Of a DNA stretch of 64,000 nucleotides, positions 11,506-59,472 are shown in pieces (the stretch's first letter is position 1; each line of letters opens with the position of its first letter). Location of the stretch: contig DWWL01000044.1 of assembly GCA_019119775.1 (NCBI GenBank), forward strand, positions 1 through 64,000, read 5' to 3'. Under the pieces are notes generated by a model. The model searched no databases. It saw nothing but the letters and a program-made list of their open reading frames with translations, and was not told the origin of the DNA. Source of the DNA: Candidatus Lachnoclostridium pullistercoris. Its GTDB lineage: Bacteria > Bacillota > Clostridia > Lachnospirales > Lachnospiraceae. The translations under genes and the position numbers were made by a program.

Positions 11506-11507
11506 TT

Positions 11508-13484: not shown

Positions 13485-13613
13485 CTGATCTGTATCCTTC
13501 AATTCAGTTATCCAATTTAAAACTATAACATACAATGAAAAGGAAAAACAGTACGAAACCCTTAAAATTTATTTAATTCGTCCATTTCCCCCTCTTCCCC
13601 GCCGCCTTTTGTA

Positions 13614-13642
13614 TTGACGCATTTTTCTGAAATCGTTATAAT
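13614..13642 (+). promoter_or_regulatory. Sigma-A promoter of glmS
   Basis: TTGACG-N17-TATAAT. Confidence 0.8.
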
Positions 13643-13764
13643 GTAGGCATTTGAAGGAGCTCTTCTGCTGGAAAGCGGCAGAGCGGAAAGACGTGTATCT
13701 GAAAGTACAGCTGAACTTACTTTTTGCTGAAAAACGACTGAAACAAGATTGGAGTGAAAAAATT

Positions 13765-15582
13765 ATGTGTGGAATTATCGGCTATACAGGCCCTCTGCAG
13801 GCGAAGGATGTTCTCCTAAACGGGCTTTCCCAGCTGGAATATCGGGGCTATGACAGCGCAGGAATCGCATTTTTTGAATCGGGCCAGAATGTCCGCGTTG
13901 TAAAGACCACGGGAAAGGTCGCCCGGCTGAAGGAGCTGTGCTCCAGCATCACAGAGGAGATCCACTGCGGAATCGGCCATACCAGATGGGCAACCCACGG
14001 CGGAGTTACCGTGGAAAATGCCCACCCTCATCAGGCCGGCAGAGTGACCCTGATCCACAACGGGATCATTGAAAATTATCATCAGCTGACCGCTGATTTT
14101 CATTTGGAGGGGACTCTCATCTCCCAGACGGACAGCGAGGTGGCAGCCAGAGTGCTGGATCAGATCTACGATCATGATCCCATTTCCTCCATCCGGCGTC
14201 TGGTCCCCCTTTTAGAGGGCTCCTACGGCTTCTGTATCCTTTTTTCCGATCATCCCGGGGAAATCTATGCCGTCCGCAACGTAAGCCCTCTGGTGGCCGC
14301 CTACACCCATTCAGGCTCCCTCATCGCCTCTGATCTGACCGCCCTGATCCCCTACACGAGAAAATACGCGGTGGTTCCGGAAAATCAGATCGTAAAGCTG
14401 ACTCCCTACCGGATGGAATTTTATCAGATGGACGGAACGCCGGCTTCCCCGGAGATACTGGAAGTAAACTGGGATACGGACGCCGCCATGAAGAACGGAT
14501 ATCCCCATTTCATGCTGAAAGAAATCCATGAGCAGCCGGAGGCGCTGAAAAAAACGATTCTCCCCCGCCTTACAAAGGGCCTGCCGGATTTTGGGGATGA
14601 CGGCATACCGGACAGTCTGTTCCAGACCTGCAGCCAGATCCGGATCGTCGCCTGCGGCACCGCCATGCACGCGGGAATGGTGGCAAGGGCTGTTATGGAA
14701 CCCCTTCTTAAGATTCCTGTCCTCGTCTCCGTAGCCTCTGAATTCCGCTACGAGGATCCTCTGGTAAACGACCAGACTCTCACCATTGTGATCTCCCAGT
14801 CCGGGGAGACCATCGACACTCTGGCCGCTCTGCGCCTGGCAAAGGAACTCGGCTCCAAGGTCCTTTCCGTAGTAAATGTGAAAGGCTCCACCATCGCCAG
14901 AGAAAGCGACTATGTTCTCTACACCCACGCCGGTCCGGAGATCGCTGTAGCCAGCACCAAGGCTTATTCCGTCCAGCTGGCTGCCCTTTATATGATCACC
15001 TGCCGCATGGCCTGCGTGCGCGGAAAAATGACCGACCAGGAAGCTGCCTCTTTCATGGAAGACCTGCTGGACGTGATCCCGGCCATGGAAGAAATGCTGG
15101 ACCAGGCAGAAACTATCAAGACCATCGTACGCCCCCTGATCGACAAGCCGGACGCTTTCTTCATCGGGCGCAACTTAGACTATGCCTTCTCTCTGGAAGG
15201 CGCCCTTAAATTAAAAGAGATCTCCTACATCCACGCGGACGCCTACGCGGCCGGAGAATTAAAGCACGGCACCATCGCCCTCATCGCCGACCAGGTACCG
15301 GTGATCGCCCTGGCCACCCAGGACAGAATCTTCTCCAAGATGATCTCCAATGTGCGTGAAGTGAAGGCCAGGGGCGCCTACGTGATCCTGATCACCAAAA
15401 AGGAAGCAGATGTGGATCCGGAGCTGGCGGATGTGCGGATCCGGATCCCTGATCTCCACGACCGCTTTACCGTCTTCCCCATCGCGGTGGTCCTCCAGCT
15501 GATTGCCTACTATGCGTCCCTCTTAAAGGGACTGGATGTGGATCAGCCCCGCAATCTGGCAAAATCAGTCACGGTGGAGTGA
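13765..15582 (+). CDS. glmS: Glutamine-fructose-6-phosphate aminotransferase (isomerizing)
   Basis: MCGIIGYTG N-terminal nucleophile Cys2 sets the start; C-terminal ...PRNLAKSVTVE. Confidence 0.98.
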   Translation: MCGIIGYTGPLQAKDVLLNGLSQLEYRGYDSAGIAFFESGQNVRVVKTTGKVARLKELCSSITEEIHCGIGHTRWATHGGVTVENAHPHQAGRVTLIHNGIIENYHQLTADFHLEGTLISQTDSEVAARVLDQIYDHDPISSIRRLVPLLEGSYGFCILFSDHPGEIYAVRNVSPLVAAYTHSGSLIASDLTALIPYTRKYAVVPENQIVKLTPYRMEFYQMDGTPASPEILEVNWDTDAAMKNGYPHFMLKEIHEQPEALKKTILPRLTKGLPDFGDDGIPDSLFQTCSQIRIVACGTAMHAGMVARAVMEPLLKIPVLVSVASEFRYEDPLVNDQTLTIVISQSGETIDTLAALRLAKELGSKVLSVVNVKGSTIARESDYVLYTHAGPEIAVASTKAYSVQLAALYMITCRMACVRGKMTDQEAASFMEDLLDVIPAMEEMLDQAETIKTIVRPLIDKPDAFFIGRNLDYAFSLEGALKLKEISYIHADAYAAGELKHGTIALIADQVPVIALATQDRIFSKMISNVREVKARGAYVILITKKEADVDPELADVRIRIPDLHDRFTVFPIAVVLQLIAYYASLLKGLDVDQPRNLAKSVTVE

Positions 15583-15717
15583 TCTCCCTCACGATCCCCT
15601 CCCCGGCGGGAAGAGTCCGCGGCGAAATCAGGAAGCGATGGGCGCGAAAAACAATACCGACAGAAAGCGGCACTTTCCTTTCCGCTCCAGTGCGATTCCC
15701 GCGGAGCGTTTTTGTAA

Positions 15718-15812
15718 AACAAGGGACATTTTGTATAACAGGGAACATCATATCTAACAGGGAACATCATATCTAACAGGGAACATCGTTTCTAACAAGG
15801 AACATCGTTTCC
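15718..15812. repeat. Five tandem 19-bp repeats, consensus AACAGGGAACATCATATCT
   Basis: Units begin at 15718, 15737, 15756, 15775, 15794; copies 2 and 3 identical, others diverged. Confidence 0.93.
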
Positions 15813-15819
15813 TGTACAA

Positions 15820-15866
15820 AAAGCAGGGCCGCGCCGGTTTATCCCGCCGGCGCAGCCCTGCTTTCT
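15820..15866. terminator. Bidirectional terminator between convergent glmS and cytidylate-kinase-like gene
   Basis: AAGCAGGGC.GCGCCGG ... CCGGCGC.GCCCTGCTT with flanking A/T runs. Confidence 0.85.
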
Positions 15867-15945
15867 TCTTCCTTTTTTCTGTTTTCATTTTCCCGTTAAG
15901 GAACCTTCGCATTTACTCAGAACTCTTACTCAAAAATCTGCTCAC

Positions 15946-16590
15946 TTACTTCTGAGCGGCCCTGTACTGTTTCATTTTCGCATCTGCGAAAGCCAGAATC
16001 ATATCTACCGTTCCGTCAATTCCCAGCACGCTGCTGTTGATGCAGAGATCGTAGCTGCGGACATCGCCCCACTTTTTGCTGGAATAGTAATTGTAGTAGC
16101 TGGAGCGCTCCTTATCCGTCTTCATCATAATCTCTTTCGCCTTGGCTTCGCTCACATTGTTGCGCTCTGCCAGGCGGCGGACCTTCGTCTCGTCATCGCC
16201 GGTCACAAACACGCTGACCCGGTTGGGATAATCCTCCAGCGCATAGTCTGCGCACCGGCCTACGATCACGCAGGACTCCCGGTCTGCCAGCGCCTTGATC
16301 GCCTCAAACTGCGCCAGAAAAATCTTGTGGTTAATGGGCATATCCATGTATCCGGAAGAGGTATATCCAAAAGAATAGGAATCCATCACCAGGGAATACA
16401 GGAAACTTTTCGTGGGCTTTTCATCATGTGTCTCAAACAGCTCCTCGCACAGGCCGCTGTCCTTTGCCGCCAGAGCAAGCAGCTCCTTGTCGTAGCACTT
16501 GATTCCCAGCTTTTCCGCCGCTTTCTGTCCAATCTCTTTTCCGCCGCTGCCCGACTGCCGTCCAATTGTAATGATCAGGTTGTTGCTCAT
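15946..16590 (-). CDS. Cytidylate kinase-like family protein
   Basis: MSNNLIITIGRQSGSGGKEIGQKAAEKLGIKCYDKEL P-loop variant of the family. Confidence 0.9.
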   Translation of the reverse strand: MSNNLIITIGRQSGSGGKEIGQKAAEKLGIKCYDKELLALAAKDSGLCEELFETHDEKPTKSFLYSLVMDSYSFGYTSSGYMDMPINHKIFLAQFEAIKALADRESCVIVGRCADYALEDYPNRVSVFVTGDDETKVRRLAERNNVSEAKAKEIMMKTDKERSSYYNYYSSKKWGDVRSYDLCINSSVLGIDGTVDMILAFADAKMKQYRAAQK

Positions 16591-16680
16591 ACTTATCTGC
16601 TCCTTCCCTATGCTGAATTCGCCTGAAAAGCGTTTATTTACTATCCCTATTATATAGCGAAAAAGCAAAAAAGTATATAA

Positions 16681-17592
16681 TTATTTTAATATTTTCAAAA
16701 GTTTTTGGAAATATTCAGGCAACGGAGCGGAAAACTCCATATATTCACCGGTTCTCGGATGAACAAAGCCTAAAACCCCGGCGTGGAGCGTCTGTCCCTG
16801 CAGTCCCGGGATGGGACATTTGGCCGGCCCGTACACCGTATCCCCCAGAAGAGGATGATGGATGCTGGCCATATGGACCCGGATCTGGTGCGTCCGCCCC
16901 GTCTCCAGCTGGCATTCCACGTAGGTGTACTTTTCAAAGCGCTGCAGCACCCGGTAATGGGTGACCGCTTCCCGTCCGTTTTTGTAGTTGATGCTCATTT
17001 TCTTCCGATCTGTGGGATGACGACCGATGGGAGCGTCCACCGTCCCCTCCTCCTCTTTGATCACCCCGTGGACAATGGCATAGTACTTCCGGGTGATGGA
17101 GTGAACCTTCAGCTGATCCGCTATGCTCTGATGAGCGAAATCATTTTTGCAGGCCACCAGCACCCCTGTAGTGTCCATGTCAATGCGGTGCACGATCCCC
17201 GGCCGGAGAACGCCGTTGATGCCGGATAAATCCCCCCTGCAGTGGGCCAGAAGTCCGTTGACCAGAGTTCCGCTTGTATGGCCGGCAGCCGGATGGACCA
17301 CCATTCCCTTCGGCTTGTTGATGAGAATGAGATCCTGGTCCTCATAGATAATATCTAACTCCATGGGCTCAGCCGCCACCTCCGGCTCCTCCGGCTCCGG
17401 CACCGTCACCTCCACCACATCATTCTCCGCCACCCGGTAGCTGCTCTTGACTGCCTTTCCGTTGACGAGAACGCCGCCGTTTTTCAATATTTTCTGAATA
17501 TAAGAACGGGAAAGGTCCTCCAGCTGTCCGCTTATGAACGCGTCCAGCCTGGAGTCCTTTCCCTCTTCCGTCACAGTGAGAAACTGTTTCAA
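16681..17592 (-). CDS. rluD: RluD-type 23S rRNA pseudouridine synthase
   Basis: S4 domain then RPGIVHRIDMDTTGVLV catalytic Asp motif. Confidence 0.93.
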   Translation of the reverse strand: MKQFLTVTEEGKDSRLDAFISGQLEDLSRSYIQKILKNGGVLVNGKAVKSSYRVAENDVVEVTVPEPEEPEVAAEPMELDIIYEDQDLILINKPKGMVVHPAAGHTSGTLVNGLLAHCRGDLSGINGVLRPGIVHRIDMDTTGVLVACKNDFAHQSIADQLKVHSITRKYYAIVHGVIKEEEGTVDAPIGRHPTDRKKMSINYKNGREAVTHYRVLQRFEKYTYVECQLETGRTHQIRVHMASIHHPLLGDTVYGPAKCPIPGLQGQTLHAGVLGFVHPRTGEYMEFSAPLPEYFQKLLKILK

Positions 17593-44577: not shown

Positions 44578-47500
44578 TCAATACGTCCGGTTCTTTGGCT
44601 GGTTTCCGGCCCACACGGCCGCGGGCACCAGCACGCCCAGCTTCTTGTCCGGATAATACTGATATCCGATGTCCGTTCCCTTCAAATTCTCTGCCTTCAC
44701 ATACTTCCTTCCGCCTATTTCTGCAGTCTCCAGCTCCAGCGGCTTTCCCTGGAACGCTTCCAGGTATTCCGCTGCCGCGTATATTTCCCCATTTTTTTCC
44801 GCAAACAGCGGATAGCCCAGATCCCTGTCTTTAAAATTCTCCAGGATCCTCCTGCTGCCGGGAGATGCCACCGTCTTTTTGTGGGGCAGCTTTCCTCTCA
44901 GATAGGTGTCAAAGAAGCTGCAGACTGCGTTCACCACCGGAGCCGTCTGACCATAGCTGCCGTTGGTGTTGGCAAACAGAAAGCAGTCCGCCCCGTAGCG
45001 GCTGCAGGCTTCAAACGTCCGCCGGGACTGGCGGTCCGGAATGTCCACCCGCACCATCCCCAGGCCGGAAAATAAAGCCGCCGGCGGGAAATCCGGCCCA
45101 ATGTGGCTCACCGGGCTGGCCAAAATGGCCTTTCTCAGCATTTCATCCAGAACCGGGTCCGTGCCCTCTCTGCCCTGTTCCATGTAATCCCTCAGCACCT
45201 TGATGCCCTTTCCTTCCCCTGCAAATCCGATCACTTCCCCCAGGGGAGCTTTAGGGCCGTCGCTGTTGTCAAATTTCATCTTCCGGATCTCTTCCGGGCA
45301 GTCTTTATACTCTTCCTCCAGGTCCAGCCCCATATGGAGAATGTCAGACCAGCCATAGCCCACGCAGACGGCCTGAAGGCGGCTGGAGACGCCGGCGTTT
45401 CCTCCCACGCAGCCTTCCAGCTCTGCCTCTCCCGCGGAGGCGGCAGCAATCAGGACGGCATTGCCTCCCATGGACTGGCCGCTGCCTCCCAGGCGGTCCG
45501 GATCTACCTTAAGCTCTGCCGCATGGGCCCGCACATAGCGGATGCATCCTTTGATGTCATAAACATAGTCCGGGAAACAGTTGGGGGGATAATTGCGCAT
45601 ATCCACACCGATCACCGCGTACCCCCGGCGCAGAAGCTCCAGCTGAATATTGGTGAGCCTGGAGGGTGTGCCGCTGTAGCCGTGCATATAGAGAACAGCC
45701 GGCGCCTTCTCTTCCCTGCTGTCCATGCGGTATTCCTCCACATAGAGGGTTTTCACCGCCGGCAGGAACAAAAGGCGGCCGTGGGCTGCCACAGAGACTG
45801 TGTCCACCACCCGGCGCCTGCGGTAGGGAAGGGGAATCACGGCAGGTTCTCCCCCCTGGTAGTCACAGATCGCCCCGTCCTCCGCCGGCCTCCCTTCCAT
45901 GGTGAAGGAAAAACCGGCTCCAAACACGGCTTTCCCGTTTTCCATCTCATATCCTGCCTCTGGAGAACCGGCGTCCATCTTTTTCCAGCAGCCATTGTAA
46001 TACAGATATAGGTGATCCTTAAAGAAATACAGCGTTCCCGGTCCCTGATATCCTTCCGTCTCCACCTGGCCCTTATACACATTTTCCTCATGCTCGATGA
46101 ACGGCACGCGGATGAAAGAGGCGTGGTCCCCGCCCTGATAGAGGGTGACGGTGGGGAGATCTTCCTCCCGGTACATGGGGTGCTGGAATGCCTTTTTATT
46201 GGCGCAGGTGATGGTCAGGCGCAGGCGGCTGCCCTCGGCAAAATGCCTGACAGCGGGCTCAATGGCAAACTGGAGATGGGTGGGATTTTTCATGCCCTCC
46301 GCCAGACATTTCTCCATATCTGCCCGCATACAGGGGTGGTAGCAGACTCCCGCCTCGTTCCAGGCCGCCCTTGGAGCCGTGGTGCGGTGGGATGCCCGCA
46401 GCATGCCCATGGATACGTACCGGGACTCTCCGCTCTTTAACACTTCTTCCAGATAGACGATGAAGTCGGCATCCGGCTGATCGCAGGTCACCCACAGGTC
46501 CACGCCCACACTGCCTGCCATCTCATTGCGGTAACGGCCATAGAGGGGCAGGGACGTGAACGTGAGCCCCTTATTGTCCACGCCCGGCGTCATGTCTCCG
46601 TCCCAGGTAAGAGCCATCCGCTCAAAGGTACTGCCCTCCCCGCTGTCAAACACCTCAATGGACGTGTCCACTTTGTAATCCGTGGTCTGACTGTCCCCAG
46701 GCTTTTCCAGGGAGAGGGAGCCGTCATTTTGAGAGCCGCAGGTGCCGGATCTGTCTGCCGTCAGGTAAAAAACCGTCCGCCGCTCATTCTCCACCGGCCA
46801 GGTGTCGGAGAAGCGCCAGCGCCTCCCCTCCTCTGCGCCGATCATGTAGTAGACGTAAGGCGGGCGCTTGTCAAAGCCATTGTCCACGCCCTTCAGCAGG
46901 TTGTCCAGCCATTTGTGGTGCTCCGCCAGCATGTCAAAGGCTCCCTCCGGATAAATGGTATCAGCAGTGGTGCGGGTGCACTGCCTGTGGGTCCAGGGGC
47001 CCAGCACCATGGTTCCGCCCCACTCCTTAGATGCCATGAGCTGGCCGAAGGTGCCAGACTCACAGAGCCCCGCAAACTGATGGATCTGAATGTCTGTCTT
47101 TTTAAATACCTCAATATCCGTAATGGGCGGAATGGTGATGTTGGTCTTCTCCCCGCCGAAATTTGGGTTTTCATCGTCCCGGCACATATTTTCCAGGAGA
47201 AGGGACTCCATGAACCTCCTGTTCCTGCCATACTGTCCGGTGAGATATGCCTCATAGGCCATATCTCCGTTCGGGTCCTCGTCCACCGGCTCCACCTGTG
47301 GATCCGCCAGCACCTCCTCCTTCGTCTTTTTCGTCGGGCTGACGGCGCTGCCGGACACGTTATTCTTCCGGTGCAGGGGAATGGCAGACACGCCGTTGGG
47401 ATAGTCCTGATAGTAAAAATCCGGGTCGCACACAATGGGGGTGATGCCCTTTAAGCCTCTGCTGGGCTCCGGCCGGCAGACCGCCGCGGCAAACTGGATC

Positions 47501-47946
47501 AGCCCCCGGTTGGAGCCGCCCACAGCGGCCACCTGACCGTCGCTCCAGTCCTGGCGGATAATCCAGTCAATAACCGCGTTGACATCTTTTCGGTTCTCAA
47601 TGCTGGCAAAGCTGTCCTGAGTGCCGTAGGAGGCCCCGGCTCCCCGGTTTTCCAGCATCGCGCCCACATACCCGTAAGGCACGCAGCGCTCGATCAGATC
47701 CACGCCGTTTCTCTTCGGGGATTTCTTCATGCGGCCTCCCCGGGAAATCAGCAGGATCACCGGAAATTTTCCTTCCGCTATGGAACCGTCCTCACAGGTG
47801 GGAAACACCAGATCCAGAGCCAGCTTCGTGCCGTCAAACCCGGATACATACTGGGATTTTATGGTGAAACCGGCGTATTCTTTTTCTGCAAAGCCTTCAT
47901 ATTTTCCCGGCAGGGAATTGCGTTTTATCTCCTTCATGCGGATCAC
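44578..47946 (-). CDS. CocE/NonD (S15-like) hydrolase fused to a second alpha/beta hydrolase domain
   Basis: N-part: RGGRMKKSP..AMLENRGAGASYGTQ, AVGGSNRG nucleophile; mid beta-sandwich; C-part: VLYMHGYSGTPSR, GGSGQSMGG nucleophile; C-terminal stalk-like segment. Confidence 0.82.
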   Translation of the reverse strand: MIRMKEIKRNSLPGKYEGFAEKEYAGFTIKSQYVSGFDGTKLALDLVFPTCEDGSIAEGKFPVILLISRGGRMKKSPKRNGVDLIERCVPYGYVGAMLENRGAGASYGTQDSFASIENRKDVNAVIDWIIRQDWSDGQVAAVGGSNRGLIQFAAAVCRPEPSRGLKGITPIVCDPDFYYQDYPNGVSAIPLHRKNNVSGSAVSPTKKTKEEVLADPQVEPVDEDPNGDMAYEAYLTGQYGRNRRFMESLLLENMCRDDENPNFGGEKTNITIPPITDIEVFKKTDIQIHQFAGLCESGTFGQLMASKEWGGTMVLGPWTHRQCTRTTADTIYPEGAFDMLAEHHKWLDNLLKGVDNGFDKRPPYVYYMIGAEEGRRWRFSDTWPVENERRTVFYLTADRSGTCGSQNDGSLSLEKPGDSQTTDYKVDTSIEVFDSGEGSTFERMALTWDGDMTPGVDNKGLTFTSLPLYGRYRNEMAGSVGVDLWVTCDQPDADFIVYLEEVLKSGESRYVSMGMLRASHRTTAPRAAWNEAGVCYHPCMRADMEKCLAEGMKNPTHLQFAIEPAVRHFAEGSRLRLTITCANKKAFQHPMYREEDLPTVTLYQGGDHASFIRVPFIEHEENVYKGQVETEGYQGPGTLYFFKDHLYLYYNGCWKKMDAGSPEAGYEMENGKAVFGAGFSFTMEGRPAEDGAICDYQGGEPAVIPLPYRRRRVVDTVSVAAHGRLLFLPAVKTLYVEEYRMDSREEKAPAVLYMHGYSGTPSRLTNIQLELLRRGYAVIGVDMRNYPPNCFPDYVYDIKGCIRYVRAHAAELKVDPDRLGGSGQSMGGNAVLIAAASAGEAELEGCVGGNAGVSSRLQAVCVGYGWSDILHMGLDLEEEYKDCPEEIRKMKFDNSDGPKAPLGEVIGFAGEGKGIKVLRDYMEQGREGTDPVLDEMLRKAILASPVSHIGPDFPPAALFSGLGMVRVDIPDRQSRRTFEACSRYGADCFLFANTNGSYGQTAPVVNAVCSFFDTYLRGKLPHKKTVASPGSRRILENFKDRDLGYPLFAEKNGEIYAAAEYLEAFQGKPLELETAEIGGRKYVKAENLKGTDIGYQYYPDKKLGVLVPAAVWAGNQPKNRTY

Positions 47947-48080
47947 ACTCCTTTTCCTTCTGTCTCAGCCGTCTCCGTCCCAGTCTTCATCAGGCGGCTG
48001 CCGAAAAAGATAAATTTCTGTTTTATTCGGCAATATGTTTTCCTGTGCGGCCAGGAAAACACCTGCTCACCTTTATATAG

Positions 48081-48096
48081 AGCAAAAGTCATGCCA
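48081..48096 (-). promoter_or_regulatory. Candidate sigma-54 (-24/-12) promoter for the hydrolase gene
   Basis: Minus strand TGGCAT-GACTT-TTGCT; GG and GC doublets separated by exactly 10 bp. Confidence 0.75.
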
Positions 48097-48240
48097 ACAT
48101 CCGCCATATCCTCTGCCTGTTTTCCAAAAATCCGTTAAAATTGTAAAATCAGGGGTATTTTTTATGCGAAATTATTGCAAAAGATGAGAAAATTCAAATT
48201 TTCCGGAATGTAAAATCCGTGATTTTAGAATGCAATATTA

Positions 48241-48335
48241 TGGAACAGAGCATAAAAAATGGAACATTTCGAAATGATTAGCCCGGAATGTTCCATTATG
48301 TTTCTGTATGTTTCGATACGTTTTATTTTGTTCCA
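48241..48335. promoter_or_regulatory. Candidate activator-binding array (GGAACA inverted repeats) upstream of the sigma-54 promoter
   Basis: TGGAACA at 48241; perfect 11-bp inverted repeat AATGGAACATT (48258-48268)/AATGTTCCATT (48287-48297); TGTTCCA at 48329. Confidence 0.6.
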
Positions 48336-48398
48336 AATCAATTAAAAATGTTTTAATATGTTTCATCCAGCAGTTCAGCTGACGCGTTTCAGTTTCAT

Positions 48399-50396
48399 CT
48401 AGTATGTTTCATCCAGGCCGTACTTTTTCATCTTCCGCCAGAGGCTGGAGCGCCCGATCCCCAGGGCCTGGGCCGCCTGCCCGCGGTTTCCACCGCTGGC
48501 CTCCAGCGCTTCTTCAAGCCGCTCCCGCTCTCTCCGTTCCTTTTCAGAGAGCTGAGACAGATTCGGAGCCGGAACCTCAGGTTCTTCCTTCTCCGTCCTC
48601 TCCTCTTCCGGAAATTCCTCGCAGATGTCCGCAAGCTGCCGGCGGATCATGCCGCCGTCCACCTTCTGCCGGTCGCTGACGATCACCAGCCGCTCGCAGA
48701 AGTTTCTGAGCTGCCGCACATTTCCCGGCCAGGAAAAGGACAGGAGCGCATTCCCGGCGTCCTGGGTCAGCTCCAGATTCTTGGAAGCCCGTTCTCCGTA
48801 ACGGGCCAGAAACTCCTCCGCCAGCAGAAGGATGTCCTTCCCCCGGCTGCGCAGAGGCGGGATCCGCAGGGTGAGAACGTTCAGGCGGTAGTAGAGGTCC
48901 TCCCGGAATTTTCCTTCCCTGACCAGCTTCTGCAGGCTCTTGTTGGAGGCGGCGATGATGCGCACATCCACAGGAATCACCCGGTCGTCTCCCACCCGGG
49001 TGATCACCCGCTCTTCGATCACCCGCAGCAGGCGCACCTGGCCCTGCAGATCCATCTCAGAGATCTCATCCAGAAAGATCGTCCCCTTGTCTGCCTGTTC
49101 GATCAGTCCTTTCTTTCCCTGGCGGGAAGCGCCGGTGAAGGCGCCTCCCACATAGCCAAACAGCTCGCTCTCCAGCAGGCTCATGGGAAGAGCCCCGCAG
49201 TTCACCGCCACAAAAGGCTGATCCTTCCTCGTGCTGTAGTTGTGGATGCTCTGGGCAAACAGCTCCTTTCCCGTGCCCGATTCCCCGAAGAGAAGGATGT
49301 TGGCCTGGTTTTTGGCAAACTGCTTCGCCTCATAGCGGCACTGCTCCATAACCGCTGAATCTCCTTTGATATCGGAAAAATGGTATTTCGCCGCAAGCCC
49401 TCTGGAATAGATCTCATTTTTGATCTGGGATTCCAGGTTCTCCACTCTCTCCTTCTGATTCATATGGAGGATAGCGCCCTGGATCTGCCCGTTTTTCAGA
49501 TAAGGTACGGCGCTGACGATCACCGCATGGTCCCGGATCTGAAGGATGTTTCCGTAGATCGTCTCCCCCTTTTTCAGCACCGCCGCCAGCTTCTGCCGGT
49601 CCAGCTCCGGGGCCAGTTCACAGATCGGCCGGCCGGTGATCTCCTTCTGGCCCAGGATCTCCCTGACGATGGCATTGCTGATGACCACCCGTCCGTCCGG
49701 ACTGATCATGGCCATCCCCTCGAAGGAGTAATCCATCATAAACTCCAGAGTCCGGCGGTACTCCCGCTGGCTCCGCAGGTTCTCCACAAACATCACCGCC
49801 ATCTCCAGGGTGTGGCAGTAGGACTCATACTCGTCGGCGTTTTCCGTGTAGTAGGCGCGCATTCCCAGGGCCGCCGCCTCCCGACAGACCCTCAGCCCGC
49901 CGATGATAAAAGTAGCTCCTTCCTCCCGCGCCTGGACCAGCTTTCTGCGGATGTACTCCGGGGCGTCCTCCTCCATCACCACGTTAATCATCTCCAGATG
50001 AAACAGATAGCGTATGATCTCCCGGTTGATCAGCAGCGGCTGATGACTGAACACCGCCGCCTTAGCCCCCGGCAGGAGAAATTCTTCCGGATGCTGCTTC
50101 ATCACCTGGACAAACAGAGAAAAGGTGCTGGACGCCAGAAACTGAATGGGAATTACCGGAATCCTGCTGCTGACCCCCGCCTCTTTTAAAATCCGTTCCA
50201 TCCGCCCGCGGCAGATCACAGCGTCAATCCGGGCCGCCTCCATCTGGCGGAGCAGCTCCCGCATTTCCGGGGAATCGCTGCGGACCAGGGAATCCTCTAT
50301 GTGCTTTTCCTCCAGGGAAATGCCCATTTTTTCCGCCGTCTCCTGCATCAGCGCATCCTTCCCCGCCTTTCTCGTGGAAAGATACCAGAATTTCAC
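48399..50396 (-). CDS. Sigma-54-dependent transcriptional activator with PrpR-type N-terminal sensor, PAS, AAA+ and Fis HTH
   Basis: GESGTGKELFAQSIHN Walker A, GAFTGASRQGKKG sigma-54 contact loop, C-terminal Fis-type HTH; PrpR_N-like N-terminus. Confidence 0.92.
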   Translation of the reverse strand: MKFWYLSTRKAGKDALMQETAEKMGISLEEKHIEDSLVRSDSPEMRELLRQMEAARIDAVICRGRMERILKEAGVSSRIPVIPIQFLASSTFSLFVQVMKQHPEEFLLPGAKAAVFSHQPLLINREIIRYLFHLEMINVVMEEDAPEYIRRKLVQAREEGATFIIGGLRVCREAAALGMRAYYTENADEYESYCHTLEMAVMFVENLRSQREYRRTLEFMMDYSFEGMAMISPDGRVVISNAIVREILGQKEITGRPICELAPELDRQKLAAVLKKGETIYGNILQIRDHAVIVSAVPYLKNGQIQGAILHMNQKERVENLESQIKNEIYSRGLAAKYHFSDIKGDSAVMEQCRYEAKQFAKNQANILLFGESGTGKELFAQSIHNYSTRKDQPFVAVNCGALPMSLLESELFGYVGGAFTGASRQGKKGLIEQADKGTIFLDEISEMDLQGQVRLLRVIEERVITRVGDDRVIPVDVRIIAASNKSLQKLVREGKFREDLYYRLNVLTLRIPPLRSRGKDILLLAEEFLARYGERASKNLELTQDAGNALLSFSWPGNVRQLRNFCERLVIVSDRQKVDGGMIRRQLADICEEFPEEERTEKEEPEVPAPNLSQLSEKERRERERLEEALEASGGNRGQAAQALGIGRSSLWRKMKKYGLDETY

Positions 50397-50433: not shown

Positions 50434-51558
50434 TCAGGCAAAATACTCCAGCACAGTCTCAAACGTCACTTCATATCCCAGCTCCAAAGAATCTCTCAGC
50501 ACGTACTCCTCCCTGGTGTGGGCGCCGCTCCCGAAATAGGCGCCGAAGCACACCGCCGGGATGTCCATGGAAAGAGGAATGTTGCAGTCGGTGGAACCAG
50601 GCTGGCGCTTCACTTTCTTTCCGGTCACTGCTTCCAGACGTTTCTCCGCCTTCTGCAGAAGTTCCTCTCTTTTCGCCTCCGTCTCCGGGCTTAAATTCTC
50701 GCAGGGGCGCTCTCCCACCAGCTTCACCTCAATGCCCGGCCGGTCCAGGATCCGGTCAAACTGCTCTTTCATGTAGTCCAGACCGGATTTGGTGTCGGAG
50801 CGGAACTCGCAGAGCATGGACGCCTCCTGGGCGATGGTGTTGACAGAAGTGCCTCCCGTGATGGTACCCACGTTGTAGGTGGTTTTTCCTTCCTCAGGAA
50901 CCTGAACCGCGTAAATGTCCTCGATGATGGCCGCCAGCTTTTCGATGGCATTCTCTCTGCCGAAATCGCCGTAGGAGTGGCCGCCCTGGGTCTTTGCCGT
51001 CACTAAGAACCGATGGGATCCTACTGCCCGGTTGGTCACGCCGTCCAGTTTCCCGTCAAAGCTGTAAAACTCCCGGATCTGCCCCTTGTAATCTTCGCAG
51101 ATTTTCCGGCTTCCCTTTAAATTTCCCAGGCCCTCTTCCCCGGAATTGCACACAAAGAGAATGCCGGCGTCCTTCGGTTTTAAGCCTTTCTCCGTCACGT
51201 ACTTCGCAATCATAAGGATATTGACCAGATTGGCCGTGTCGTCTCCCACGCCGGGGCAGCAGAGCTTTCCATCCTCCTCCTTCCAGGGAAGGGGATCCGT
51301 GTCCGGAAATACCACGTCTGTGTGGGCCATGAACACGATCACCGGCCCGTCCTCCGTCACGCCGAAGGGATAGACCACATTGAGGGCCTCGTCAGTGTAG
51401 ACTCCCTCCGCCCCCATGTCTTCCAGCCACTTTCTGCAGAATTCCATCCGCTTCTCCTCATGGTTGGACGGGGATGGGATCTGGGCGATGGTCTTTAAAA
51501 GCTCATACGCCTCCTCCTTATGGTCTTCAATAAACTGTTTTGCCTGTGCTGACAGCAT
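50434..51558 (-). CDS. M20 family metallopeptidase (PepT-like)
   Basis: VFMAHTDVVFPDTD, GVGDDTANLVNIL, CNSGEEGLGNLKG metal-site motifs. Confidence 0.92.
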   Translation of the reverse strand: MLSAQAKQFIEDHKEEAYELLKTIAQIPSPSNHEEKRMEFCRKWLEDMGAEGVYTDEALNVVYPFGVTEDGPVIVFMAHTDVVFPDTDPLPWKEEDGKLCCPGVGDDTANLVNILMIAKYVTEKGLKPKDAGILFVCNSGEEGLGNLKGSRKICEDYKGQIREFYSFDGKLDGVTNRAVGSHRFLVTAKTQGGHSYGDFGRENAIEKLAAIIEDIYAVQVPEEGKTTYNVGTITGGTSVNTIAQEASMLCEFRSDTKSGLDYMKEQFDRILDRPGIEVKLVGERPCENLSPETEAKREELLQKAEKRLEAVTGKKVKRQPGSTDCNIPLSMDIPAVCFGAYFGSGAHTREEYVLRDSLELGYEVTFETVLEYFA

Positions 51559-51696: not shown

Positions 51697-53343
51697 CTAA
51701 TTTTTGTACGTCTTGCTCAGATAAACGTTTCCTGTGGGATGATAGATGAAGTTCTGCACGTTGGGAAGGTATGCAGACAGGCTTTCCTGATGGGAAATGG
51801 GAAGCCAGATGCACTCATCCGCCAGCTTCTGCTCCATCTTCTCATAGAGAGCGTTTCTCTCCTCGCCGTTAGGAAGGCTTACTGCCTCGGCCAGCATGGC
51901 GTTGTACTCGTCGTTCTTATAGTGGGCCACGTTGATGCCGATATCCTCGTTGGCCAGCAGGTTTAAGAAGTTGTCCGGATCGCCGTTGTCTCCCGTCCAT
52001 CCAAACAGGCACACGTCAAAATCTCCCGTATTGCACTTGTCAATGTAGGAGGTCCAGTCAAAGGTGTCGATGGTGCAGTTGACGCCGACTTTTGCCCAGT
52101 AGCCCTGGATCGCCTCCGCAAGAGTCTGGCCGGTGGCGGTGTTGTAGGGTCTGGGATTGGTGTAGGCCACCATGTAGAGATCCGTCACGCCTTTTTCCGC
52201 CAGAGTCGCTTTTGCTGCCTCCGGGTCATAGGATACCTGATGAACGTTGCTGCTGTAGCCGGGCACGAAGCTGGGAAGAATGGTGGTCGCCTCAGACGCG
52301 TAGCCTCTGTAAAGGCTCTGCACCAGCTCCGGAACGTTGATCGCCTGGGAAAGGGCTTTTCTCACCTCCGGGTCCGTGATCACGTCGGTGTTGTAGGCCA
52401 TGTAGTTGATGTTCATTCCCTCCACCTGATTGATGACGCAGCCGGCGGCAGTGATCTGATCCACTACGTTGGCGTCGATGCCGTCAATAATATCTACCTC
52501 GCCGTTGGTGAGGGCCACCACGCGGGCGGAATTGTCCGTGATGATCCGGAATACCAGGTTCTTTGCCACTGCCGGCTCTCCCCAGTAATCCTCGTTGCGC
52601 TCCATCACCACAGCCTCAGCCTTGTCCCATCTGACAAATTTGTAAGGGCCGGTGCCGCAGGGATGCTCGTTTAAGTTGTTGTCATATTTCTCGCAGGCCG
52701 TGGGGCTCACGATGGGAGCGCCTAAAGACATGGCCAGATTGTTTAAGAACGGCGTGCTGGCCTTCTTCATCTTAAACTCTACCGTGTACTCGTCGATCAC
52801 GTTGCAGGACTCCACATCCCCGTACACGAAATCGCCGTAGTTCATGTTCTCCGTCTTGTTGATGGTCTGACGGTCCACGTTGAACTTCACCGCCTCCGCG
52901 TTGAAATCCGTTCCGTCGTGGAACTTGACTCCCTGTCTTAAGTGGAAGGTGTAGGTCAGTCCGTCGTCGCTGATATCCCAGGACTCTGCCAGGCAGGGCT
53001 CCACCTCCGTGTTGGAGTCCCCGAATTTCAAAAGGCCCTCATACATCTGCACGATGGGCTTGGAAGACTCTCCGTCGTCCACGATCGCCGGGTCCAGGCC
53101 TCTCGGATCCGCTCCCTGGGCGAAGGTAAGGGTCTGCTCCCGGTCCACATCCTCCGGGATCTCCCCATACTCCTTGAGGGCTTCGCCCGCTGCCGCCGTC
53201 TCCGGCGCAGACGTCTCTCCCGTCTCCGTTCCGGCCGCCTCCGCCGCCGTTGTGGAAGCCGTATCAGATCCGCTGCCGCCGCAGGCAGCCATGGACAGAG
53301 CCACAGCAGAGAGCAGCAGGGCACTGACTACTTTCTTTTTCAT
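51697..53343 (-). CDS. Oligopeptide ABC transporter substrate-binding lipoprotein (SBP family 5), distal copy
   Basis: Lipobox LSMAACGG; TYTFHLRQGVKFHDGTDFNAEAVKFNVDR SBP_bac_5 signature. Confidence 0.95.
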   Translation of the reverse strand: MKKKVVSALLLSAVALSMAACGGSGSDTASTTAAEAAGTETGETSAPETAAAGEALKEYGEIPEDVDREQTLTFAQGADPRGLDPAIVDDGESSKPIVQMYEGLLKFGDSNTEVEPCLAESWDISDDGLTYTFHLRQGVKFHDGTDFNAEAVKFNVDRQTINKTENMNYGDFVYGDVESCNVIDEYTVEFKMKKASTPFLNNLAMSLGAPIVSPTACEKYDNNLNEHPCGTGPYKFVRWDKAEAVVMERNEDYWGEPAVAKNLVFRIITDNSARVVALTNGEVDIIDGIDANVVDQITAAGCVINQVEGMNINYMAYNTDVITDPEVRKALSQAINVPELVQSLYRGYASEATTILPSFVPGYSSNVHQVSYDPEAAKATLAEKGVTDLYMVAYTNPRPYNTATGQTLAEAIQGYWAKVGVNCTIDTFDWTSYIDKCNTGDFDVCLFGWTGDNGDPDNFLNLLANEDIGINVAHYKNDEYNAMLAEAVSLPNGEERNALYEKMEQKLADECIWLPISHQESLSAYLPNVQNFIYHPTGNVYLSKTYKN

Positions 53344-53429
53344 ATTACGTTTCCTCCTCTCCTGTCTCCAGCCCGTCTCTGGCAGAAATTGACCAAAAAC
53401 AGGCCATGATAGGTAGAATTATAGTACAA

Positions 53430-53461
53430 TTCCGCAAAAAGCACAACTGCTTTTTGCGGAA
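53430..53461. repeat. 13-bp perfect inverted repeat TTCCGCAAAAAGC-N6-GCTTTTTGCGGAA upstream of distal oppA
   Basis: Direct reading; next to minus-strand TATAAT at 53418-53423. Confidence 0.9.
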
Positions 53462-53484
53462 CTGCTGAAAAAATATTTTTGTCC

Positions 53485-53637
53485 GTAACAGTTCAGACGG
53501 CGGGTAAACAGAGGGGAAAACTGACGTCAAGCTCGCTTGTAAGTAAATTTTCCCCTCTGTTTACACATCGGATGGACATCCGATGCTTCTTGTCCGGCTT
53601 ATTGGCCGGGCAAGAAGATACCCGTCTGAACTGTTAC
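53485..53637. other. Four-helix (cloverleaf-like) nested inverted-repeat element
   Basis: P1 53485-53500/53622-53637 (16/16 bp); P2 53504-53520/53548-53564 (17/17); P3 53566-53585 (CATCGGATG-GA-CATCCGATG); P4 53586-53617 (CTTCTTGTCCGGC/GCCGGGCAAGAAG, one T.G). Confidence 0.92.
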
Positions 53638-54623
53638 TATTTTCCGTCGTACAGATGGCAGGCCACCAGATGGCCGCCGCCCACGTCCTTCATCTCCGGC
53701 AGGATCTCGTCGCAGCCCTGGCACTTCTTGAAGCACCGGGAGCTGAAGCGGCATCCCTTCGGCGGATCGATGGGGGTGGGCACATCTCCCGTCAGGATGA
53801 TTCTCTCTTTCTTCTTTGTCACATCCGTGGAAGGGATGGCGGACAGAAGAGCCTGGGTGTAGGGATTTAAAGGATTGTCGTAGATCTCATGCTTTCCGGC
53901 AACCTCCATCAGTTTTCCCAGATACATGACGCCCACCCGGTCGCTGATGTGCTTCACCACGTTTAGGCCGTGGGCGATGAATAAGTAGGTCAGGCCGAAC
54001 TGTTCCTTTAAGTCGTCCAGCAGGTTTAACACCTGGGCCTGAATGGACACGTCCAGAGCAGATACCGGCTCGTCGCAGACGATGAGCTTGGGCTCCACCG
54101 CCAGGGCTCTGGCGATTCCCACTCTCTGGCGCTGGCCGCCGGAGAACTCATGGGGATAGCGGTTTCTCTGGTGATTGGCCAGACCTACGCAGTTTAACAG
54201 GTAAGTCACCCGGTCCTCGATCTGATCCTCCGGAAGCAGGTGGTTGATGCGGATGGGCTCCGCGATAATATCTCCGATGGTCATACGGGGATTTAAGGAG
54301 GCGTAGGGATCCTGGAAGATCAGCTGAATGTCCTTGCAGTACTTCCGTCTCTCCTTGCGGGACAGCTTTGTAAGGTCCACCCCGTTGTAGATGATCTCTC
54401 CCTCCGTGGGGGTATAGAGATCCACCAGCATCTTGCCGATGGTGGACTTTCCGCAGCCGGACTCGCCCACCAGGCCGAAGGCTTCTCCCTTATAAATCTT
54501 GAAGGAAACGTCGTCCACCGCCTTCAGAATGGAGGTGGGTTTCCCGAAAAAGTTGGTTTCAACCGTGAAATATTTCTTCAGGTTTTTTACCTCTAAAAGA
54601 ACTTCTCTCGTCTCTTCGCTCAT
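53637..54623 (-). CDS. oppF: Oligopeptide ABC transporter ATPase OppF-like
   Basis: GLVGESGCGKST, SGGQRQRVGIARAL, C-terminal oligopeptide Cys motif. Confidence 0.95.
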   Translation of the reverse strand: MSEETREVLLEVKNLKKYFTVETNFFGKPTSILKAVDDVSFKIYKGEAFGLVGESGCGKSTIGKMLVDLYTPTEGEIIYNGVDLTKLSRKERRKYCKDIQLIFQDPYASLNPRMTIGDIIAEPIRINHLLPEDQIEDRVTYLLNCVGLANHQRNRYPHEFSGGQRQRVGIARALAVEPKLIVCDEPVSALDVSIQAQVLNLLDDLKEQFGLTYLFIAHGLNVVKHISDRVGVMYLGKLMEVAGKHEIYDNPLNPYTQALLSAIPSTDVTKKKERIILTGDVPTPIDPPKGCRFSSRCFKKCQGCDEILPEMKDVGGGHLVACHLYDGK

Positions 54624-55604
<981 letters not shown>

Positions 55605-55616
55605 GACGGCTCCTCC

Positions 55617-56510
55617 TTATACTCGTTCTTTCGGATCCAGGGCGTCTCTCAAGCCGTCTCCGAACAGGTTGAAGGCCAGAACGGCCAGGGTAATGGCAAG
55701 TCCCGGGAAGATCAGGGTGTAGGGGGCGGAGAAAATGTAGGTTCTCGCCCGTCCCAGCATATCTCCCCACTCAGACATGGGCGGCTGTACGCCCATGCCC
55801 AGAAAGCCCAGGGCCGCCGTGTCCAGGATAGCCGTGGAGATTCCCAGGGTCGCGCGGACCACAATGGAAGAAATCACGTTGGGCAGGATGTGGCGGAAAA
55901 TGATCCGTCCGTCTGAGTTGCCGATCACCTTCGCCGCCGCCACATAGTCATTCTCCTTTACGGAAAGAATAGAGCTGCGGACAATGCGGGCGTACTCCGG
56001 AATGGAAACAGTTCCGATGGCGATGACCGCCTTGTCCAGTCCCTTTCCCAGAGCTGCCATCAGAGTGATGGCAAGCAGGATGGAGGGAATGGAGAGCATG
56101 ATGTCCATACATCTCATGATAAAGCCGTCGATCTTGCCGCCGAAATATCCGGCCACCGATCCCAGGATGGTTCCGATCACCAGGGAGAAGGCCACGGCAG
56201 AAAGACCTACCAGCAGAGAGACCTTCGTTCCGGACAGCACGCGGGAGAAGATGTCGCGTCCCAGCTGATCCGTGCCGAACCAGTACTCTGCGCAGGGTTT
56301 TACGAAGGTGTGGGCCATGTCGGAATACTCCGGGTCATAGGGAGCCAGCAGGTCCCCGAAAATGGCCAGGAAAATGAGAATCACAATGACCACCAGCCCG
56401 GCCAGGGCCGCCTTGTTTTTCTTTAAGGTGTCCCACATGACCTTTAACTGGGACTCCGGTTTCTCGATGACCTCTCCGGCCACCACTTCTGTGCGTTTTT
56501 TCTTTGCCAT
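55617..56510 (-). CDS. oppC: Oligopeptide ABC transporter permease OppC-like
   Basis: FGTDQLGRDIFSRVLSGTKVSL, EYARIVRSSILSVKENDYV EAA-type loop. Confidence 0.95.
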   Translation of the reverse strand: MAKKKRTEVVAGEVIEKPESQLKVMWDTLKKNKAALAGLVVIVILIFLAIFGDLLAPYDPEYSDMAHTFVKPCAEYWFGTDQLGRDIFSRVLSGTKVSLLVGLSAVAFSLVIGTILGSVAGYFGGKIDGFIMRCMDIMLSIPSILLAITLMAALGKGLDKAVIAIGTVSIPEYARIVRSSILSVKENDYVAAAKVIGNSDGRIIFRHILPNVISSIVVRATLGISTAILDTAALGFLGMGVQPPMSEWGDMLGRARTYIFSAPYTLIFPGLAITLAVLAFNLFGDGLRDALDPKERV

Positions 56511-56513
56511 GGC

Positions 56514-57530
56514 TTACGCCTCCTTTCCTGAATATTTAATTCTGGGATCGAGGAAGGCGTATACCACGTCCACGATCAGATTCATCAAAACGAAGATCAC
56601 GGCAATGAGCAGAACCACGCCCTGCACCACAGGGAAGTCTGACTTCATGATGCACTGCACCGTGTAGTTGCCGATTCCGGGCCAGGAGTACACAGACTCC
56701 GTCAGCACGGCTCCGCCGAGCAGGGATCCCAACTGCAGGCCGATGACGGTGGCCACGGGCAGCATGGCGTTTCTCAGGGCGTGACGGCGGTTTACTTTTC
56801 CCTCCGGAACACCCTTCGCCCTTGCGGTGCGGATATAGTCCTGATTTAAGGTTTCCAGCATGCTGGAACGGGTCATTCTGGCGATGATAGCCATGGAATA
56901 AAGGCTCAAGGTCACGGCCGGAAGCACCAGGTGCTGAAGCACGTCCTTTAATGCCTCCCAGTCTCCCGCCAGGATGCTGTCAATGATCATAAAGCCCGTC
57001 ACCGTATCGGGCCTCAGGGCCGGGTTTACTCTTCCTGTGGACGGCAGCCAGTGAAGAGTGCCGGAGAACAGGATGATCAGCATGATGCCCAGCCAGAAGA
57101 TCGGAATGGACACGCCCACCAGGGAGAGGAGCATGCCTCCGTTGTCAAAAATCGAGTTTTTGTGGACGGCGGATACGACGCCCACCGCAATTCCCAGCAC
57201 CGAGGCCAGGATGATGGCTACGACGGCCAGCTCCACCGTAGCCGGGAAACGGGACATGATCTCGTCCACCACCGGCGTCTTGGTGTAGTAGGAAGTTCCC
57301 AGGTCACCGGTGAAAGCTCCTTTTATGAAGTCCACATACTGGACTACCACCGGGTCATTCAGGCCGTTGGCCTCTCTCCACGCGTCCATGCTCTCCTGGG
57401 TGGCATGCTGTCCCAGCACGATGGGAGCCGGGTCAGGCGCGCAGACACGCATCAGGAAGAATACAATCAGCGACACCCCAAACAGTACCGGGATGAGCAG
57501 GAGCAGTCTCTTCACAATGTACTTTATCAT
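56514..57530 (-). CDS. oppB: Oligopeptide ABC transporter permease OppB-like
   Basis: MIKYIVKRLLLLIPVLFGVSLIVFFLMR; ARMTRSSMLETLNQDYIRTARAKG. Confidence 0.96.
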   Translation of the reverse strand: MIKYIVKRLLLLIPVLFGVSLIVFFLMRVCAPDPAPIVLGQHATQESMDAWREANGLNDPVVVQYVDFIKGAFTGDLGTSYYTKTPVVDEIMSRFPATVELAVVAIILASVLGIAVGVVSAVHKNSIFDNGGMLLSLVGVSIPIFWLGIMLIILFSGTLHWLPSTGRVNPALRPDTVTGFMIIDSILAGDWEALKDVLQHLVLPAVTLSLYSMAIIARMTRSSMLETLNQDYIRTARAKGVPEGKVNRRHALRNAMLPVATVIGLQLGSLLGGAVLTESVYSWPGIGNYTVQCIMKSDFPVVQGVVLLIAVIFVLMNLIVDVVYAFLDPRIKYSGKEA

Positions 57531-57562
57531 CTTATCTACCTCTTTCTTCTTTTTGTTTTCAT

Positions 57563-57623
57563 GGGGAACAATTCATTTCTGAACCGGCCATCCCCTTCCT
57601 GGCTCAGAAACGGACTGTTCCCC
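57563..57623. repeat. Nested inverted repeat in oppA-oppB intergenic region
   Basis: GGGGAACA/TGTTCCCC outer; TTTCTGA/TCAGAAA middle; GCCA/TGGC inner. Confidence 0.65.
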
Positions 57624-57655
57624 CGGAACCGTCCGGAGTATCCTTTCGTCCCATA

Positions 57656-57696
57656 GACACCCATAAAGGGCAGATTGCTCTGCCCTTATGGTGTAA
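57656..57696 (-). terminator. Intercistronic stem-loop after first oppA
   Basis: ACACCCATAAAGGGCAG attgct CTGCCCTTATGGTGT, two single-base bulges. Confidence 0.7.
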
Positions 57697-57721
57697 ATGC
57701 CAGTTCCTCGCTGTCAGTCTA

Positions 57722-59377
57722 TCAGTTTTTGTAAGTGTGGCTCAGGTACGTGTTGCCGGTCGGATGATAGATGAAGTTCTGTACGTTGCTGAGATAGCCG
57801 GCCAGGTTCTCCTGGTGGGAAATCAGCAGCCATACATTCTCGTCCGCAACCTTCTGCTCCATCTCTGCGTAAGCGGCGTTTCTCTCATCTCCGTTGGGAA
57901 GAGAAGCTGCGTCAGAGAGCATCTGATTGAATTCCTCGTCGTGGTACTGTGCCACGTTCATCTCAATGTCATCAGAAGCAAGCAGATTTAAGAAGTTGTC
58001 CGGGTCGCCGTTGTCGCCGATCCATCCGTACAGACATACGTCGTAGTCGCCGGTTCCGATCTTCTCCTTGTAGGTGGTCCAGTCATAAGCGTCGATGGTG
58101 CAGTTTACGCCAACCTTTGCCCAGTAGCCCTGGATTGCCTCTGCCAGAGTCTGTCCGGTAGCGGTGTTGTAAGGTCTGGGGTTGGTGTAGGCCAGCATGT
58201 GGATCTCGGTAACGCCCTTCTCCTCAAGCACCTGCTTCGCATCTTCCGGATCGTACTGGGTCTGGGTCACGTCTGCGCTGTAGCCCGGAACGAAGGAAGG
58301 AAGAATGGTGGTCGCCTCTGTTGCGTAGCCTCTGTAAAGGCTCTGTACCAGCTCCGGTACGTTCACAGCCTCGCTGAGAGCTCTTCTCACATCCGGATCG
58401 TCCAGCTTCTGGGTGTTGTAGCCCAGGTAGTTGATGTTCATTCCCTCGGTCTTGTTTAACAGACAGCCGGCAGCGGTGATCTGATCCACCACGTTGGCGT
58501 CGATGCCGTCAATGATGTCAACCTCGCCGTTGGTGAGAGCCACCACGCGGGCGGAGTTGTCCGTGATGGTACGGAACACGATCTCCTTGGCAACGCCCTT
58601 GTCTCCCCAGTAATCTTCGTTTCTCTCCAGCACAACAGCCTCGTTCTTGTCCCATCTCACGAACTTGTAGGGACCGGTTCCGCAGGGAGCCTCGTTTAAG
58701 TTGTTGCCGGCAGCCTCACAGGCAGTGGGGCTTACCATGGGAGCACCTAAAGACATGGCCAGGTTGTTTAAGAAGGGAGTGCTGGCCTTACTCAGCACGA
58801 TCTCTACCGTGTAGTCGTCGATGACGTTGCATGCAGCCACATCGCCGAACACGAAGTCTGCGTACAGCATGTCGGACGTCTTGTTCACCGTCTGACGGTC
58901 GATGTTGTACTTCACTGCTTCCGCGTTGAAATCAGTGCCGTCGTGGAACTTTACACCCTGTCTTAAGTGGAAGGTGTAGGTCAGTCCATCGTCGCTGATG
59001 TCCCAGGACTCTGCCAGACAGGGCTCCACCTCGGTGTTGGAATCGCCGAACTTGGTCAGGCCCTCATACATCTGTACGATGGGCTTGGAAGACTCGCCGT
59101 CGTCCACCAGAGCCGGGTCCAGACCTCTCGGGTCTGCGCCCTGAGCATATGTAAGAGTCTGCTCCCGGTCCACATCCTCCGGAACCTCAGCAAACTCCGT
59201 CAGGTTCTCCGCCGCCTGCGCTGTCTGCGCCTCGCTGCTTTCTTCCGCGGTGCTGCCGCCCTCTTCAGAGGACTGAGCAGCCGTGGTGTCTGTTGTGGAG
59301 CTGCCTCCGCCGCAGCCGGATAATACGGCAGCCGTCATGGCAGTACACAGCAGTACGCTGGCTAATTTCTTTTTCAT
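57722..59377 (-). CDS. Oligopeptide ABC transporter substrate-binding lipoprotein (SBP family 5), proximal copy
   Basis: Lipobox AVLSGCGGG; long near-identical stretches with 51697-53343; start at MKKKLASVLL. Confidence 0.95.
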   Translation of the reverse strand: MKKKLASVLLCTAMTAAVLSGCGGGSSTTDTTAAQSSEEGGSTAEESSEAQTAQAAENLTEFAEVPEDVDREQTLTYAQGADPRGLDPALVDDGESSKPIVQMYEGLTKFGDSNTEVEPCLAESWDISDDGLTYTFHLRQGVKFHDGTDFNAEAVKYNIDRQTVNKTSDMLYADFVFGDVAACNVIDDYTVEIVLSKASTPFLNNLAMSLGAPMVSPTACEAAGNNLNEAPCGTGPYKFVRWDKNEAVVLERNEDYWGDKGVAKEIVFRTITDNSARVVALTNGEVDIIDGIDANVVDQITAAGCLLNKTEGMNINYLGYNTQKLDDPDVRRALSEAVNVPELVQSLYRGYATEATTILPSFVPGYSADVTQTQYDPEDAKQVLEEKGVTEIHMLAYTNPRPYNTATGQTLAEAIQGYWAKVGVNCTIDAYDWTTYKEKIGTGDYDVCLYGWIGDNGDPDNFLNLLASDDIEMNVAQYHDEEFNQMLSDAASLPNGDERNAAYAEMEQKVADENVWLLISHQENLAGYLSNVQNFIYHPTGNTYLSHTYKN

Positions 59378-59472
59378 AATAGCTCCTCCTTTTCCAATTT
59401 CCATTCCCGACCAGGCAGCATCCCGCTACTACTTTAATGAGCCAATGTGCCAAATCTGCAATGTTGAAGCTG

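Follow-up and report, generated by a model that had tools for sequence, protein, structure and literature searches.

A predicted sigma-54 promoter and an opposed, helically phased array of half-sites between a PrpR_N-type activator gene and a two-domain hydrolase gene in Candidatus Lachnoclostridium pullistercoris

In the 64,000-nucleotide stretch of Candidatus Lachnoclostridium pullistercoris DNA analysed here (the window), the gene for a sigma-54 enhancer-binding protein (EBP) and a large hydrolase gene are separated by an intergenic region rich in GGAACA-like repeats, and the question raised by this locus is whether that region is a sigma-54 promoter with its own enhancer and, if so, what the repeats do. 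The sigma-54 regulons of Clostridiales have been surveyed and 39 EBP groups described (Nie et al., 2019; PMC6615313). In that survey, the upstream activating sequences (UASs) lie 100–250 bp upstream of promoters with the consensus TTGGCATN5TTGCT, and the commonest UAS of Fis-type EBPs is TGT-N10-12-ACA. The features discussed below are collected in Table 1.

Table 1. Features of the hydrolase–activator locus (window coordinates)
Feature	Position	Strand	Remarks
Target hydrolase gene	44578..47937	-	approximately 1119 amino acids, two-domain alpha/beta hydrolase; start from orthologue N-termini
Predicted 5' leader of hydrolase	47938..48069	-	approximately 130 nt, two hairpins; relatives have an MFS gene there
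Sigma-54 promoter (predicted)	48081..48097	-	-24 TTGGCATG, -12 TTGCT, GG-N10-GC; conserved position in eight related loci
Second mirrored half-site	48241..48247	-	TGTTCCA; 19 bp from first mirrored half-site
Inverted repeat, right arm	48258..48268	-	AATGTTCCATT, then TTTTATG; arm and tail give a six-T run
Inverted repeat, left arm	48287..48297	-	AATGGAACATT
Direct arm, presumed upstream activating sequence	48289..48366	-	eight 10-bp slots with RRACA: AAACA 48363, AAACA 48353, degenerate 48343, GAACA 48333, AAACG 48323, AAACA 48313, AAACA 48303, GAACA 48293
Activator gene	48399..50396	-	665 amino acids: PrpR_N, PAS, AAA+ with GAFTGA, Fis-type HTH
M20-family peptidase gene	50434..51558	-	directly upstream of activator gene; kept in nearest relative

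The predicted sigma-54 site reads TTGGCATGACTTTTGCT on the minus strand and contains TGGCA, TTGCW and the GG-N10-GC spacing. A preliminary description had proposed TGGCAT-N5-TTGCT with this spacing, which is confirmed by the minus-strand sequence of 48096–48081, TGGCATGACTTTTGCT. On a consensus matrix with manually set weights the site scores 18.3 of a possible 20.6 bits, and it is the only match above 13.0 bits in the window. A consensus scan of the minus strand from 47900 to 48700 detected no sigma-70-type promoter. The 2.84 Mb genome contains a complete rpoN gene, encoding the AID, core-binding and DNA-binding domains, so that the absence of rpoN, named in the preliminary description as grounds for rejecting a sigma-54 promoter, does not apply. 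Exact matches to TGGCAYRN4TTGCW number six in the genome and none in a reversed control; as base counting predicts approximately two to three per genome, the count is not decisive by itself, and it is the placement of the matches that decides. Five of the six adjoin an EBP gene: the window site, one at C1 (EBP gene, then an aminotransferase gene), one at C16 (EBP gene, then a gene for a PLP enzyme) and two at C53, one on each side of an EBP gene. The sixth is within another gene.

The gene upstream of this promoter encodes an EBP. As proposed earlier, it is a PrpR-type activator: a PrpR_N domain scoring over the Pfam cut-off and a weakly matching PAS domain are followed by an AAA+ domain, which carries the Walker motif GESGTGKE and GAFTGA, and by a C-terminal Fis-type HTH. 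It shares the PrpR_N, AAA+ and Fis-type HTH domains with PrpR, the activator of propionate catabolism, but falls below the cut-off of the NCBIfam PrpR equivalog (351.9 versus 499.2 bits), and the inspected neighbourhood lacks propionate-catabolism genes. The NCBIfam PrdR model gives 386.2 against a cut-off of 795, and by these cut-offs the protein is neither a propionate PrpR nor a PrdR. The M20-family peptidase gene that ends a peptide-type ABC operon is separated from the activator gene by only 37 bp, and the activator gene is therefore probably co-transcribed with that operon, for which the matrix scan gave no sigma-54 site. The operon itself (51697–59404, minus strand) carries genes for similar substrate-binding proteins, one at each end.

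Downstream of the promoter, the open reading frame had been described as a large hydrolase gene at 44578–47946. The hydrolase assignment stands, while translation more probably begins at ATG 47937 than at GTG 47946, because the shorter protein aligns with the orthologue starts MSENKRNSLPGKY/MEEKKRNSLPGKY. The product comprises a CocE/NonD S15 domain and PepX_C followed by a BD-FAE/esterase-like domain. Its N-terminal half resembles CocE and the X-Pro dipeptidyl peptidases (S15), matching CocE_NonD and CocE structures (3i2g, E 6e-18), but in the window protein this half is fused to the second, esterase-like domain. Only 12 relatives came out of a pattern-based scan covering 85,462 species genomes. 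With the transcription start placed from the -12 element, the predicted leader would contain the hairpins TGTTTTCCTG/CAGGAAAACA and TGCCGAA/TTCGGCA.

The promoter is retained among these relatives. All eight hydrolase loci with at least 56% identity (L034–L041) have an upstream sigma-54 site scoring 15.2–20.0, located before the hydrolase gene itself or before MFS/MatC/transporter–hydrolase operons, and two remote loci (L044 and L045, 29–31% identity) have one before a peptide-transporter–hydrolase operon. Four of the eight carry close orthologues of the activator. The nearest relative, Candidatus Lachnoclostridium avicola (L034), has the order M20–EBP–MFS–hydrolase, the MFS gene sitting between promoter and hydrolase; the window locus lacks this gene, and no match to it was found in the window genome (89% complete). 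The hydrolase gene follows a MatC/CitMHS carrier gene (a Pfam assignment, made in L035) and an MFS gene in L035 and L036, and an MFS gene, an esterase gene and a similar carrier-like gene in L039 ([Clostridium] citroniae). Since the operons of relatives pair the hydrolase with an MFS transporter, with or without a MatC/CitMHS carrier, the probable function is to take up and cleave an organic compound of ester or amide type. Five EBPs were treated as orthologues, those of the window, L034, L035, L039 and L036; the L034, L035 and L039 proteins are 56–73% identical to the window activator, and the L036 protein, outside the identity table, was assigned from an open frame before the promoter with the same C-terminus. 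The recognition helix is near-identical in all five, (I/M)(G/A)R(S/T)SLWRKMKKY.

Several further loci came to light. On the same contig as its orthologous locus, L036 has a second S15-type hydrolase gene, accompanied by a divergent EBP gene of its own and a sigma-54 site (CTGGCACGCTTTTTGCT; 10433–16718). L030 (460–5313) and L032 (5927–10785) carry a paralogous EBP gene and a sigma-54 site before esterase-like and CitMHS carrier genes, repeating the EBP–hydrolase–carrier theme. In L031 (6513–11518) strong sigma-54 sites flank an EBP gene on both sides, with TTGCA-type half-sites; a GntP permease is one target, and a single in-frame TAG interrupts the EBP match.

Between the stop codon of the activator gene and the -24 element lie the repeats. 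The 11-bp perfect inverted repeat of the preliminary description is exact, its arms being separated by 18 bp, and both additional GGAACA half-sites are present, TGGAACA at 48335–48329 and the second mirrored half-site. The distance given for these elements also holds, as they lie 145–239 bp upstream of the -24 element, so that repeated dyad half-sites occur within the 100–250 bp interval of a UAS. The heptamers TGGAACA and TGTTCCA occur 12 times in the window, four of them inside these 95 bp. TGGAACA-N8-36-TGTTCCA recurs at one further place in the genome (C83), which is within an open reading frame and was rejected as an enhancer. GRRACA/TGTYYC-like half-sites occupy the gap from EBP stop to -24 in all five orthologous loci, centred approximately 105–185 bp before -24 in the window and the four orthologues. 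Binding of the GGAACA elements by the adjacent activator is inferred from two features: the half-sites are co-conserved with the nearly invariant recognition helix, and they stand in a 10-bp register.

This register, which the preliminary description did not include, extends beyond the inverted repeat. The window half-sites are part of a longer array (48366–48241) in which six RRACA matches, in all slots of the direct arm but 48343 and 48323, share one 10-bp register, and the direct array runs on into the inverted repeat. L035 has seven direct half-sites 10 bp apart and three mirrored ones, also 10 bp apart. None of 1000 dinucleotide shuffles matched the observed number of 10-bp pairs in either locus, a figure to be read with the register having first been noticed by eye, so that motif and period were chosen after the data were seen; L035 had been inspected together with the window and so counts only in part as an independent test. 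In the 741 kb of strand scanned, at least four RRACA in a common register were found in the window and L035 loci only, and no such array appeared at any other period from 7 to 13. By inspection, L034 and L036 have 10-bp neighbours inside both arms and no long array; the long direct array is confined to two of the five orthologous loci. Strict four-decamer matches in 397 genomes of the family consisted largely of simple repeats; among the non-simple loci, the 11 that were checked lacked a nearby EBP gene. When three decamers were required, in the window genome and in those of the nearest relative, L035, L036 and L039, every match beyond the UAS regions lay apart from EBP genes and from plausible sigma-54 promoters. 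A separate tandem array with a period of 19 (TAACAGGGAACATCATATC) and a GGAACAT core lies at 15710–15806 (plus strand) of the window, between convergent glmS-like and cytidylate-kinase-like genes; given this position and the lack of an exact match among 20 relatives, it was rejected as a second enhancer.

Alternatively, the inverted repeat could serve the activator gene as its intrinsic terminator, a reading absent from the preliminary description; the promoter would still be real, and the enhancer would lie elsewhere or be weaker. As RNA, the window repeat forms a hairpin (-14.5 kcal/mol, z -4.1) with six U at its end; hairpins at the equivalent place in L034, L035 and L036 are stronger (-30 to -33 kcal/mol), and in the paralogous L030 and L032 loci a hairpin carrying a long T run lies between EBP gene and promoter. 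An intrinsic terminator has a GC-rich stem and then a T run; the window repeat has a six-T run but an AT-rich 11-bp stem, and a consensus scan did not report it as a terminator. A terminator leaves unexplained why, in the window and L035, half-sites beyond the hairpin keep the register, and why the GRRACA/TGTYYC letters are shared. In L039 the two elements are apart: first comes a canonical hairpin, GCCGGGAAGGGAG, with a T run, and then the TGGTACA/TGTGCCA dyad, which has no T run and folds no more strongly than shuffles (z -0.6). A terminator in place of the enhancer is regarded as unlikely, yet as a serious rival. The two roles can coexist, and the most fitting reading of the half-sites is an enhancer that would coincide, in some species, with the terminator of the activator gene. 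The 10-bp spacing might also reflect phased A-tracts, that is, intrinsically bent DNA aiding looping, and the window array is indeed AT-rich, its short A runs being in phase with the helix. In L035, however, RACA is the core that recurs, and its surroundings are less A-rich (AAGACAGCGT AAGACAGAAT), from which it follows that the letters are conserved and not the A runs, and mirrored half-sites accompany the array; bending as the whole explanation thus appears very improbable. A different regulator might also bind the array while the adjacent activator acts elsewhere, as regulators of other types, such as those with OmpR/PhoB-like sites, more typically use direct 10-bp repeats. This is scarcely to be expected when the half-sites co-occur with this EBP clade, lie downstream of the activator stop codon and ahead of the sole sigma-54 promoter, and have no other regulator gene adjacent.

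With high probability, the minus strand of 48081–48366 is an EBP-controlled sigma-54 promoter region for the adjacent hydrolase gene. The promoter, the activator domains, rpoN, the array and the conserved architecture can be read from the sequence, and binding, looping, inducer and substrate are presumed. The ACA...TGT orientation of the half-sites, the occurrence of the long array at two orthologous loci only and the possible terminator hairpin weigh against this account. In the mechanism proposed, the PrpR_N/PAS regulator would bind GRRACA half-sites on one face of the helix approximately 145–270 bp upstream of the promoter, in the direct 10-bp array and the mirrored half-sites. Its N-terminal domain would detect a small molecule, the presumed inducer; the activated regulator would then loop across the AT-rich spacer to the -24/-12 element and, spending ATP, convert the sigma-54 polymerase complex there to its open form, leading to expression of the hydrolase and cleavage of its putative substrate. 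Tentatively, and with a good deal of doubt, it may be suggested that this clade of PrpR_N-type activators uses opposed GRRACA arrays at one helical turn (10 bp), which would place several subunits on one DNA face, and that the dyad centre doubles as the terminator hairpin of the activator gene.

The locus belongs to the known type of EBP–sigma-54 catabolic regulon. It resembles the surveyed Clostridiales regulons in having one EBP beside one target operon, and in UAS distance, promoter consensus and the PrpR_N sensing domain (PMC6615313). It differs in that none of the 39 EBP groups listed there has a CocE/S15 hydrolase target, and in that its half-sites, by inspection, are oriented ACA...TGT, opposite to the TGT-N10-12-ACA dyad that is common, not universal, in Clostridiales. 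Titles and abstracts of the open-access literature yielded no relevant description of helically phased EBP half-sites, and the enhancer layout is possibly new. Aside from this layout the system is ordinary in kind. The sigma-54 regulons of gut Lachnospiraceae gain a target not described in the papers checked, a fused CocE/esterase hydrolase that in relatives is accompanied by transporters, and the window and L035 loci together provide two natural enhancers for asking how EBP oligomers assemble on DNA.
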